The notes beneath the pieces are model-generated. The model searched no databases. It was not told the DNA's origin and saw nothing but the letters and a program-made list of their open reading frames with translations. A stretch of DNA of 35,398 nt from Candidatus Bathyarchaeota archaeon (GTDB lineage Archaea > Thermoproteota > Bathyarchaeia > 40CM-2-53-6 > JALHTG01): positions 1 to 35,398 of the forward strand of contig JALHTG010000063.1 of assembly GCA_022865705.1 (NCBI GenBank). Reading direction: 5' to 3'. Both the position numbers and the translations under genes were made by a program. Of this stretch, positions 8,558 through 24,338 are shown piece by piece. The stretch's first letter is position 1, and each line of letters opens with the position of its first letter.

Positions 8558-8629
8558 CGGCTCATGTTACAATATGGTAACAACCTTTATATTTACCTTG
8601 TGTTACAATATTGTAACAGGGATGAGCCG
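8558..8629. promoter_or_regulatory. Symmetrical divergent control region of the module A transposase
   Basis: Two 18-bp palindromes, TGTTACAATATGGTAACA (8565-8582) and TGTTACAATATTGTAACA (8601-8618), differ at one base. They flank a TATA-like TTTATATTT (8586-8594). Outside them, CGGCTCAT (8558-8565) and ATGAGCCG (8622-8629) extend the symmetry. A regulator bound to both palindromes would cover the promoter, so auto-repression of the transposase or its divergent neighbour is the likely purpose. The palindrome centres are 36 bp apart. Confidence 0.75.
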
Positions 8630-9744
8630 TGAGAACCGTCCAAGAGCTACGCCAAGCAAGAGGCCAAGCAATTGCGGAAGCACCAAACCAAATCACTAGA
8701 CTATTCGACAACTTGTACAAAGTGAAGTCGCAATCCGGCAACGGTGAATACAAAGTTGAACGCAACCTCGTTGGTTGGTCTTGCTCTTGCCCCGATCACA
8801 TTCACCGAGGCGTGAAGTGTAAGCATGTCTGGGCTGTTGAGATCAGTTTCGCTCTCCGAAGAAAGGTCTGGGAGAGAACAATCGAACCAATCACCGTATC
8901 TGTCTGTCCGTACTGCGACTCATCCAACATCAAAAGATTCGGGGTTCGTCATAACAAGCACACCGAGATTCAACGCCTTCTATGTGTCACATGCCATAGA
9001 ACTTTCAGCATCAACATAGGCTTCGAGAGAATGAAGCATAACCCGCAAGGAATCACAACCGCTATGCAATTGTACTTCAGCGGAGAATCTCTGAGGAACA
9101 CCGCTAGATCATTGAAACTGATTGGCGTTGAAGTCAGCCATCAGACAATCTACAACTGGATAGAGAAGTACGTCAGTCTGATGCAGAAATACCTAGAAAA
9201 GATCACACCGCAAGTCTCCGACACTTGGCGGGCAGATGAACTCTATGTGAAGATCAAAGGCGACATGAAATACCTATTCGCGTTGATGGATGATGAAACG
9301 CGGTTCTGGATAGCTCAAGAAGTGGCAGATACGAAGTACACGCATGACGCTAGAGAGCTTCTAAGGCTAGGCCGACAGATTGCCGACAAGACACCCGCCA
9401 CTCTAATCACCGATGGGTTACAGTCATACCATGACGCTTACCTCAAGGAATACTGGACAGTGAGGAAAGACTCGCAGACGAGGCATGTACGCGAAATCAA
9501 GATCAGTGGCGAAGTACACAACAACAAAATGGAACGGTTCAACGGCGAAGTCAGAGACAGGGAGAAGGTGATGAGAAACCTGAAACGCAAGGATACGCCT
9601 ATCTTGACGGGCTATCAGATCTTCCACAATTATGTGAGACCTCACATGGCCTTGAAGGGTAGAACGCCCGCAGAGCTATGTGGAATCAGAGTTGAGGGCA
9701 AGAACAAGTGGCTGACGCTCATACAGAACGCAAGCCAAGCCTGA
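8629..9744 (+). CDS. SWIM-domain DDE transposase (IS6-like), copy 1
   Basis: The 371-residue product has three parts. A SWIM zinc finger lies at residues ~40-70 (CSCPDH...KCKH; Cys52, Cys54, Cys64, His66). A four-cysteine zinc ribbon follows at ~93-122 (CPYC...CVTC). The catalytic domain resembles IS6-type DDE transposases: WRADELYVKIKG (Asp203), LITDGLQSY (Asp262) and NNKMERFNGEVRDREK (probably Glu302), ending with NYVRPHMALKGRTPAE. The GTG at 8629 is the best start. A second copy at 13825 is clearly homologous throughout. SWIM fingers bind DNA or protein; fused to a transposase they may help recognise the paired CTGT repeats at the module ends. The frame is intact. Confidence 0.92.
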   Translation: MRTVQELRQARGQAIAEAPNQITRLFDNLYKVKSQSGNGEYKVERNLVGWSCSCPDHIHRGVKCKHVWAVEISFALRRKVWERTIEPITVSVCPYCDSSNIKRFGVRHNKHTEIQRLLCVTCHRTFSINIGFERMKHNPQGITTAMQLYFSGESLRNTARSLKLIGVEVSHQTIYNWIEKYVSLMQKYLEKITPQVSDTWRADELYVKIKGDMKYLFALMDDETRFWIAQEVADTKYTHDARELLRLGRQIADKTPATLITDGLQSYHDAYLKEYWTVRKDSQTRHVREIKISGEVHNNKMERFNGEVRDREKVMRNLKRKDTPILTGYQIFHNYVRPHMALKGRTPAELCGIRVEGKNKWLTLIQNASQA

Positions 9745-13824: not shown

Positions 13825-14937
13825 ATGAGCAACAATCCGCGTGAGTTGAAAGGCCAAGCAATAGCCGCCCTTGGCAACCAAATTCACAGAGTAAACGCCT
13901 TCACTTACAGAGTTGCATCGCAGAGCGGCAACGGCCCCTACATCGTCGCGCAGGACGGCGATAGATGGGCTTGCAAGTGCCCCGACCATCAGCACCGAGG
14001 CGTAACGTGCAAGCATATTTGGGCTGTCAGGCTCAGTCTAGGTTTAAGGGAAAGAGTGGCCCGCGAAACCGTCATCCGACCAATCAATGCGGCCATGTGT
14101 CCGATCTGTCAATCAGATCAAATCGTCAAACATGGTCTAAGACACAACGGCCACGGAGACATTCAACGATTCAAGTGCCGAAGTTGCGGCAGATGGTTCG
14201 TAGTGAATCTAGGCTTCGAGCGAATGAAGGCTAGTCCTCAAGCGATCACGTCAGCAATGCAACTATATTTCACGGGCGAATCACTGAGGAATGTTCAACG
14301 ATTCTTGAAACTTCAAGGCGTGAAAGTCAGCCATGTGGCCGTCTACAAGTGGATACAGAAGTACGTCAGCCTCATGCAGAAGTACCTCGATCAAATCACT
14401 CCGCAAGTCTCCGATGTTTGGAGAGCCGACGAAATGTACGTGAAGATCAAGGGAGACATGAAATATGTGTTCGCGCTGATGGATGATGAAACTAGATTTT
14501 GGATTGCTCAGGAAGTGGCTGATAGCAAGTATGCGCATGATGCTCGAAAGCTTCTGCGAACAGCAAGCGCAGTTGCGGGAAAGAAACCGGCCACGTTCAT
14601 CACAGACGGCTTAGAGTCGTATCATAATGCGTACTTGAAAGAATGGCGAACATTAAGGAAAGACGATTGCCCAAGACACATACGCAACATTAGGCTAGGC
14701 GGCCAACCCACAAACAACAAAATGGAACGACTCAACGGCGAAATCAGGGATAGGGAAAAGGTTATGCGTGGATTGAAGAAACCCGACACGCCAATCCTAA
14801 AGGGCTATCAAATCTACCACAACTATGTCCGACCACATGAAGCCTTGAAGGGAAGAACCCCTGCTGAAATGTGCGGGATAGAGGTCAAAGGAAAGAACAA
14901 GTGGATGACGCTGATACAGAATGCAAGTCGGAATTAA
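13825..14937 (+). CDS. SWIM-domain DDE transposase (IS6-like), copy 2
   Basis: The 370-residue product is homologous over its full length to the transposase of module A, but clearly diverged, most strongly in the first 45 residues. The SWIM finger uses Cys50, Cys52, Cys62 and His64 (CKCPDH...TCKH); the zinc ribbon uses Cys92, Cys95, Cys118 and Cys121. The catalytic residues are Asp202 (WRADEMYVKIKG), Asp261 (FITDGLESY) and probably Glu301 (NNKMERLNGEIRDREK). The frame is complete with an ATG start. The module ends near it also differ from those of module A, so transposase and ends appear to have changed together. Confidence 0.92.
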   Translation: MSNNPRELKGQAIAALGNQIHRVNAFTYRVASQSGNGPYIVAQDGDRWACKCPDHQHRGVTCKHIWAVRLSLGLRERVARETVIRPINAAMCPICQSDQIVKHGLRHNGHGDIQRFKCRSCGRWFVVNLGFERMKASPQAITSAMQLYFTGESLRNVQRFLKLQGVKVSHVAVYKWIQKYVSLMQKYLDQITPQVSDVWRADEMYVKIKGDMKYVFALMDDETRFWIAQEVADSKYAHDARKLLRTASAVAGKKPATFITDGLESYHNAYLKEWRTLRKDDCPRHIRNIRLGGQPTNNKMERLNGEIRDREKVMRGLKKPDTPILKGYQIYHNYVRPHEALKGRTPAEMCGIEVKGKNKWMTLIQNASRN

Positions 14938-21699: not shown

Positions 21700-22096
21700 T
21701 CATGGATTCTGAAGGATGAAGTCTTTGTCAACAGTCCCAAAGTAAGAGATAGCGCGCGCTAGCCATTTGTAGAAGCGTTTGAGAACTACGCAGTAAGTGT
21801 GGTACGTCCACTCAGCCAGCCCGCGCTTCCTGATCTGATCCATTAGATCAACGATAGAATCCTTCGTAGCCTTCTCGAATGGAACCTTGTAGAACCTGGC
21901 CAGCAACGTGAGGTTTTTGGAGATAGATCAGTTGCCTTTCTAGGCTGAGATTGTTCGCTCGACAGAACGCGACAAACTTGTTGATTTGCTGCTTGTTCTC
22001 TGGGCATATTGAGGGGTCTTGCTCCAAGTTTCGGAGAGCAAGATCAAACCGGTGCTTGCGGTTGTGAATGTCTATTCTGTCGGGCTCGGTGTTCAT
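21700..22096 (-). pseudogene. Broken tyrosine recombinase (integrase), N-terminal part
   Basis: Two frames together give the N-terminal SAM-like domain of a tyrosine recombinase: MNTEPDRIDIHNRKHRFDLA ... NKQQINKFVAFCRANNLSLE up to ~21900, then in another frame LARFYKVPFEKATKDSIVDL ... HTYCVVLKRFYKWLA. A frameshift near 21900 separates them and the whole catalytic domain (R-H-R-Y) is missing. It lies 44 bases beyond the 3' end of the tRNA-like locus, in the same direction, the normal position of an integrase after insertion into a tRNA gene. This is probably the remains of an older integrated element. Confidence 0.7.
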
Positions 22097-22413: not shown

Positions 22414-23430
22414 TTAGGACTCTTTCCAAAGAGATGGATATGTGCCCGGTGGCATGATCACTCGAACGGTCTTTGCAGCGATTCCATGATCCTGCTCAAG
22501 CATCTGCTCAGTTGACAGTAGAGCCTTGGCTAATGCAACTACTTCACCCTTAATTGACAGCAAGACCAGCAGAGTTCTAGATACTATCGCTTTGTCCAAC
22601 CTGACTATGCCGGGTATGGCCAGATCTGCTCCATGACAGATCGCATCCACAGCAGAGTCTCGTATGTAGACCTTTGGTATGAAGTCGAACGCTTCTTCTA
22701 CTGGTCGCACAGCCTTCCTCAGCTTTGCTTCGTCCTTCTTTTGCTTCCAATCATCGTACGCGTCAAGAAGATCATACAGTGAGAACGAGTTCTTGTCTTC
22801 ATTAAACGGCCCGGCCCTTGTCCTTCTCAACTCTTTCATATGCGCGCCACAACCTAGCGCCTCACCTATGTCGCTGCAGATTTTGCGAGCATACGTCCCA
22901 GCTTGACAGGCAATCTTGAACAGAACAAGCCTTCCGTCGATTTCCAATATGTCAGACTTGTAGATCATTCGTTCTCTTACGACACGTTTCACAGCTGCTC
23001 TCAGAGGTGGCCTTTGGAGAATCGCTCCGATGAATTCGCTGAAAACAGCTCTTATCCGCTCTTCTGCAACATCCTCATGGAGTTGCATGAGGCATACGTA
23101 CTCTTTGCCTGAGAGAAGAAAGGCTTGAATCACTTTCGTCGCGTCTTCGAACGCGATGGGAAGCACTCCGGTTACCTTGGGATCTCCCCCGCCTGTCTAG
23201 GCGTCGAGGGTTCCGCCGTGTCCGGCATGCTTCAGCCCAAGCATCAGTTTTACCCAGGCAACAACTTCATGGCTTGAGGGACCTGCAGGCTTGTCTAAGT
23301 TCATGATTCCAAAACGAATGTGAAGGTTGATCGGCCTACTGTATGGATCGAAGCCGAATTCTGCATTTGTGTCGACATCCGTTCTAGCCACGATTCCTCT
23401 CTCTATCTCCCAAGGTGGAAGAGGTTTCAT
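22414..23430 (-). CDS. cbf5: tRNA/rRNA pseudouridine synthase Cbf5 (TruB family), intron-containing
   Basis: Cbf5 makes pseudouridine in rRNA as the catalytic part of H/ACA RNPs and can act on tRNA U55. Exon 1 (23430-23205) encodes 75 residues, including GIMNLDKPAGPSSHEVVAWV and GHGGTL; exon 2 (23183-22414) continues PKVTGVLPIAFEDATK ... SGKEYVCLMQLHEDV ... CQAGTYARKICSDIGEALG and a C-terminal PUA domain ending near PPGTYPSLWKES. Read without splicing there is an in-frame TAG. Removing 23184-23204 restores the catalytic motif GTLDPKVTG, with 331 residues in total. Crenarchaeal cbf5 genes are known to have introns at this region. The gene is at the downstream end of the ribosomal run. Confidence 0.92.
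23184..23204 (-). other. 21-nt BHB-type intron in cbf5
   Basis: On the minus strand the region folds as bulge-helix-bulge: terminal stem CGCCT-AGAC-AGGCG, a 4-bp helix CCCT/GGGG, a 5' bulge CGA and a 3' bulge AGA. Cutting after the second base of each bulge removes exactly 21 bases and joins CTCG to ATCCC, restoring the Asp codon. The intron holds an in-frame TAG, so splicing is needed for full-length protein. Confidence 0.85.
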
Positions 23431-23496: not shown

Positions 23497-23793
23497 CTAT
23501 TTGGTCTTAGTTCTCGCGCTTGCTTTGACCACTGCGGTCTTCTCAGCTTTTTCAAGCGCCTTCAGGACTTCCTCATCAGTCGCGTCTCTTTTCAGATCTA
23601 TCTTGTCTTCAGTAGGTTCCATGTGATTCACATTCGTTCTTCGGCGCTTGACTCCTGAAAGCGACTTTGGCCCAGTTACAAGAACGTAGTTCTTGTCGAT
23701 GACGTCAACGATAACGCATCTCTTTCCGATTTCACGCCCCGCAGTTTTGACGCATATTCTACCAACTTCAATGGCTACCATTTCAGTGTTCAC
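23497..23793 (-). CDS. rpl14e: Large ribosomal subunit protein eL14
   Basis: The 98-residue product is eL14, with an SH3-like KOW fold: [38 protein letters not shown] and the basic [13 protein letters not shown]. The C-terminal helical extension ([17 protein letters not shown]) is usual. Its start overlaps the cmk stop by four bases. The order cmk-eL14-cbf5 is the standard archaeal arrangement. Confidence 0.93.
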
Positions 23794-24338
23794 TTCTTTC
23801 CCTTTTCCGCCAGATATTCGGAGATGATCTCCTTAAGAATATTGATGTTCTCCTCGATTGACTGGAGATTCGTGTCAAAGATGACATCGTAGATGGAGAG
23901 ATCGGACGGATCGATGCCGTACAGCTCAATGAAACGTTCCTTCTGGGCCGCTTCTCTCATTAAGGTTTGCCTTTTGGCTGCTTCGAAGGATAGCTTGTCT
24001 CGTCGAGCTATTCTTTCAAATCTTACATTCTCCGGCGATGTAAAGAATATCTTGACGTCAGTCTTCTCTCGGCCCATCCACGCCGAAAGCTGTCCGTCCA
24101 GAACCACGTTTCCTTTCGCTGCCTCTTCCTTTGTCATCTCGTCGATCAATCGGTCAATCTCCGGATTCTTCTTTGCCTCTTCCGTGAGTTGCTCTAACGT
24201 CAGGTTTCTTTCTTTTGCGATTCTTCGAAAAATCTGGCCGGCTGAAACAAGTCTCAGTTCAAAGGCCGTGGCAAGTGCTCGTGCGTATGTGGATTTTCCA
24301 GAACCGTGAAGACCGCTAATTGCCAGCACTAGATCCAC
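23790..24338 (-). CDS. cmk: Cytidylate kinase
   Basis: The 182-residue product phosphorylates CMP/dCMP with ATP. The P-loop is [17 protein letters not shown] at the N terminus; other family marks are [19 protein letters not shown], the substrate lid region and [12 protein letters not shown], then [17 protein letters not shown]. The archaeal short form has this length. The start codon at 24338 (ATG) gives six residues before the first strand. It is placed between DUF106 and eL14 as in most archaea. Confidence 0.93.

Follow-up and report, generated by a model that had tools for sequence, protein, structure and literature searches.

In the window analysed here (the whole 35,398-nt stretch of a Candidatus Bathyarchaeota contig), the cbf5 gene is interrupted by 21 bases that, judged from sequence comparison, are with a probability of about 95% a bulge-helix-bulge (BHB) intron of the cbf5 pre-mRNA, a case of the cbf5 intron already known from archaea. 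Insertions at the identical base were identified in 162 of the 278 distinct archaeal cbf5 loci compared. As far as the literature shows, the kind of intron is already known and what is new is its range, which extends to Bathyarchaeia, to other Thermoproteota families (with introns down to 13 nt) and to Asgards; a literature search of partial coverage found no report of a cbf5 intron in Bathyarchaeia or Asgards.

The interrupted cbf5 gene of the window

Cbf5 is the H/ACA guide-RNA pseudouridine synthase. Its gene in the window lies on the minus strand (23430-22414) at the end of a ribosomal-protein cluster, directly after the genes for ribosomal protein L14e (23497-23793, minus strand; NF003320 above cut-off) and archaeal (d)CMP kinase (23790-24338, minus strand; TIGR02173 above cut-off). 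It is single-copy in this genome, whose assembly comprises 117 contigs and is 92% complete and 6% contaminated. The first exon (23205-23430, minus strand) is an open frame from the ATG at 23430 to the G that forms the first base of the split Asp codon, and it matches positions 4-67 of the NF003280 profile (E 3.2e-22). The second exon (22414-23183, minus strand) runs from the A of that codon through PKVTGVLP to the stop and matches positions 68-320 (E 6.3e-100), its best PDB match being Cbf5 of 2aus (E 1.4e-87). The insert thus splits the catalytic Asp codon (GTL-G/AT-PKVTG, the slash marking the cut), with zero residues missing or repeated across it. Since the two exons abut on the Cbf5 profile, removal of the 21 bases restores the family sequence with neither gap nor overlap.

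The layout of the putative intron (ACGCCTAGACAGGCGGGGGAG; 23184-23204, minus strand) can be read directly from the sequence. The 5' bulge CGA (23204-23206) would be cut after its second base, between 23205 and 23204, and the 3' bulge AGA (23183-23185), which is also indicated by the comparison of loci, between 23184 and 23183. Between the bulges, the exon strand CCCT (23207-23210) of the central helix forms 4/4 pairs with the intron strand GGGG (23186-23189), a strand likewise seen in the comparison. The remainder of the intron is a 5-bp hairpin, CGCCT-AGAC-AGGCG (23190-23203; arms at 23203-23199 and 23194-23190, AGAC forming the loop), which is also present in the predicted minimum free energy (MFE) structure. 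The exon bases outside the BHB core are, on the minus strand, GGA A before CCCT and TCCC after AGA, and the exon-side helix that they form is weak (A-U, an A-C mismatch, G-C, G-C). If each bulge is cut behind its second base, exactly 23204-23184 are excised and GGAACCCTCG is joined to ATCCCAAGG, which together encode G T L D P K. With its 21 nt, the intron lies within the range of 16-44 bp reported for Crenarchaeota and encodes no homing endonuclease.

The preliminary description of this stretch had proposed a BHB intron with the same coordinates, bulges and helices, and our reading agrees with it base for base. The cutting rule that it applied does restore GTLDPKVTG with its catalytic Asp, as profile positions 4-67 are joined to 68-320. 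The TAG that it noted is indeed in frame (23199-23197), although it does not directly follow GTLD, because one Ala codon intervenes (GTL-GAC-GCC-TAG). Its statement that splicing controls enzyme function holds only in so far as an mRNA that keeps the intron cannot yield the enzyme.

The combination of 4/4 central and 5/5 inner pairs at the predicted cut was reached by 0.0105% of 200,000 intron shuffles (approximately 1 in 9,500). Single-sequence folding of the window RNA gave a z score of -0.46, which offers no support by itself. The MFE structure shifts the central helix by one base, and the BHB register has a probability of 0.22. As the folding of a single RNA is indecisive, the case rests on the comparison with other loci.

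Conservation of the insert across archaeal cbf5 loci

The cbf5 loci compared came from the order, class and phylum of the window, from named GTDB genomes and from the Asgard phylum, and the positions of the two exons were determined in every locus. Of 278 distinct loci, 162 have an insert at one and the same base (G/AY of the Asp codon) and phase, and in the other 116 it is exactly absent; these counts describe chosen loci and not prevalences, many intronless genomes having been left out. The inserts are 13-57 nt long, with a mode of 23. Known crenarchaeal cbf5 introns being 16-44 nt long (PMC2738675), 21 nt is typical, and the earlier view that such a length would be unusually short was mistaken. 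Among the 162 inserts, 125 shift the frame, 37 carry an in-frame stop and none is open; thus, no insert could be translated through.

All four pairs of the central helix are formed in 152 of 162 loci, compared with 5.6 expected from shuffled introns, and the mean number of central pairs is 3.93 at the G/AY offset (+1) that restores Asp and does not exceed 2.21 elsewhere. The helix also covaries among loci (CCCT/GGGG, CTCT/AGAG, CTCT/GGAG, CACT/AGTG, CCTT/AAGG and CTTT/GAAG). The register of the bulges is conserved, the 5' bulge being AGA in 135 of 162 loci. On the exon side, CTA serves as the Leu codon in 131 of 162 intron-bearing genes and in 9 of 116 intronless ones (Fisher p 8e-37, uncorrected for relatedness), and a tree-aware test of intron against Leu CTA, which is underpowered, gave the expected direction in a mean of 4.1 of 5 starred pairs. 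On these sequences the intron seems to constrain exon codons, and the Leu CTA bias would then represent splice-site selection on archaeal coding sequence. The window (23205-23212) is alone among these 162 genes in having CTC as Leu codon, and with it the bulge CGA.

Distribution and origin of the intron

Within the order of the window the intron occurs in 34 of the 35 other distinct loci, which answers the concern raised in the preliminary description that the bases might be an assembly error that related genomes lack. It was further identified in 57 of 88 additional loci of the class, in 14 of 17 loci whose records are named Bathyarchaeota and in 38 of 65 loci from other Thermoproteota families. 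Some of the latter (L264, L269, L267, L271 and L272) have introns of only 13-14 nt, below the reported minimum of 16 bp, in which the central helix is intact and the intron-side helix is nearly absent, pointing to a relaxed BHB. Among Asgards, the intron is present in Jordarchaeia (L175, L177 and L217), Sigynarchaeota (L179), Freyarchaeota (L181) and further genomes, including one contig of 1.1 Mb (G454) and one of 443 kb (G472), and has helix types of its own (CACT/AGTG, CTTT/GAAG and CTCT/AGAG). It was absent from the cbf5 genes examined in Hadesarchaea, Methanobrevibacter, Thermococcus, Lokiarchaeota and Baldrarchaeota. In the Thermococcus phylum, for which 99 genomes were covered, the full-length cbf5 frames found read uninterrupted through the site, and the sole shorter frame there (G669) is a match that begins past it.

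Two genomes of the Asgard group were set aside. The 'Thorarchaeota' isolate OWC3 (G448) has a cbf5 with an intron of bathyarchaeal type (L164), whose exons group with the order of the window, together with a second, intronless cbf5 (L331); this bin is therefore probably mixed, with a bathyarchaeal contig among its sequences. Genome G497 also contains two copies, one intron-bearing and one intronless (L328 and L329).

A separate interruption was observed in several Asgard cbf5 genes, in which an intein of approximately 480-490 aa precedes CHDIG (RKL/CHDIG): L339 (G496:C1:1888700-1892000), G467, G492, G493 and G546. In L339 the intein contains LAGLIDADG-like motifs, and its last residues are VSSN.

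On a Cbf5 tree of 162 rows, at least 20 changes between presence and absence of the intron are needed, compared with 44-58 when labels are shuffled. Such a low number of changes implies that the intron is inherited and has repeatedly been lost cleanly or gained anew; within one family of the window's order, for example, one locus lacks it (L003) and another has it (L014). The deep branches of the tree are poorly supported, and thus a single ancient gain and multiple gains at one favoured site are both possible. A common origin with the crenarchaeal intron may be considered, as base and phase are the same and the changes are fewer than with shuffled labels, but the deep part of the Cbf5 tree lacks resolution. 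We consider it an even chance that the intron was already at this base in the common ancestor of Thermoproteota (including Bathyarchaeia) and Asgards and has since been kept or cleanly lost. If so, it would be among the oldest traceable intron positions in archaeal protein genes, and far older than the common ancestor of Desulfurococcales and Sulfolobales in which a 2009 study placed its gain (PMC2738675).

Somewhat less probable is that the intron came to be so widespread through gene transfer or independent insertions, repeated at a single favoured site, and not by descent from a Thermoproteota/Asgard ancestor. This explanation concerns origin, treats the intron as real and is compatible with our reading of the window. 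The number of presence/absence changes, the Asgard-specific helix types and the weak deep branches speak in its favour. On the other hand, the changes are far fewer than under label shuffling, base and phase are identical everywhere, 34 of the 35 other distinct loci of the window's order share the intron, and repeated gain at exactly the same base of one gene is harder than repeated loss. The presence at one base in Bathyarchaeia and in several Asgard lineages places the possible origin closer to the Thermoproteota/Asgard ancestor and allows gain and loss to be tested against each other in hundreds of genomes.

Other readings, splicing and known introns

Several features of the window count against a BHB intron: its BHB is not the MFE structure, its exon-side helix is weak, its CTC codon is unique and the genome assembly is 92% complete and 6% contaminated. 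Among the other readings of the insert, a pseudogene, that is, a cbf5 broken by an insertion that is never spliced, would account for the in-frame TAG. We consider it very improbable, because the genome has a single cbf5, each exon matches the family far better than chance would allow and the interruption is common to 162 otherwise intact genes, always reversible at one BHB cut. Even less credible is an assembly or sequencing artefact in this contig. The fragmentation into 117 contigs and the contamination would allow for one, and the single sequence of the window cannot by itself exclude it, but the same site holds inserts of different length and sequence in independent genomes from the window's order and class, some of them on contigs of 1.9 Mb (L112, G171) and 2.15 Mb (L192). 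Read-through or recoding of the insert as a short loop, for which 21 nt is a suitable multiple of three, can be dismissed with similar assurance, since the homologous inserts shift the frame or contain stops and the loop would split the catalytic motif GTLDPKVTG.

The genome of the window encodes two PF01974 proteins, of 186 and 176 aa. The larger is nearest, among PDB entries, to the catalytic chains of the Aeropyrum/Sulfolobus type (3p1z, 3ajv and 2cv8), and the smaller aligns weakly. RtcB is also encoded (E 4.5e-178). By sequence, two PF01974 subunits, one catalytic and one structural, fit an (alpha-beta)2 endonuclease of broad specificity, a type that also cuts relaxed motifs (PMC6379350). 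By crenarchaeal precedent (PMC2738675), we infer that splicing takes place in the organism of the window through these EndA subunits and RtcB. The cbf5 pre-mRNA would fold into a BHB that spans the codons of GTL-D-P, and both bulges would be cut behind their second base by the (alpha-beta)2 endonuclease. A ligase, most likely RtcB, would then join G to AU and so form the GAU codon of the catalytic Asp. Within Bathyarchaeia, the intron would have been inherited and cleanly lost in several lineages.

The cbf5 introns of Crenarchaeota, to which the preliminary description rightly referred, are 16-44 nt long, lie in the catalytic codon and were shown by cDNA to be spliced (Watanabe 2002; Yokobori 2009, PMC2738675). 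The intron of the window shares with those of Aeropyrum, Sulfolobus, Desulfurococcus and others the gene, the catalytic codon and the cut between the second and third bulge bases; both are short (16-44 bp there, 21 here) and non-coding and have relatives with clean loss. It differs in its bathyarchaeal host, which lies outside the two reported orders, in its unusual bulge CGA and in its weak exon-side helix, and whereas splicing was demonstrated by cDNA in Crenarchaeota, it is predicted for the window. Archaeal pre-tRNA introns (11-175 nt; PMC2738675) have the same recognition motif, endonuclease and probably ligase and are of comparable size, but interrupt a tRNA rather than a protein-coding mRNA. 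Putative 12-bp introns of an archaeal virus genome, as described in the citation of Peng et al. in PMC2738675, are likewise very short inserts in protein genes; according to that account they seem newly inserted and keep the frame, and their splicing is putative, whereas the cbf5 intron is conserved and not translatable through.

A regulatory role has been proposed for the cbf5 intron (PMC2738675). A 2020 paper named crenarchaeal cbf5 as the only additional BHB intron reported earlier beyond tRNA and rRNA, and added one in a haloarchaeal 5' UTR (PMC7714728). Among archaeal pre-mRNA introns that lie within protein-coding sequence, that of cbf5 is the best documented. In groups that bear it, the annotation of cbf5 is likely to be wrong, showing two fragments or a pseudogene.

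Elsewhere in the window, downstream of cbf5, two short ORFs on the minus strand (21700-22096) overlap each other and resemble by eye a frameshifted recombinase N-terminus. Two further ORFs of 371 and 370 aa (8629-9744 and 13825-14937) are similar to each other by eye and appear transposase-like, with a zinc-finger-like start (CxC..H..CKH).
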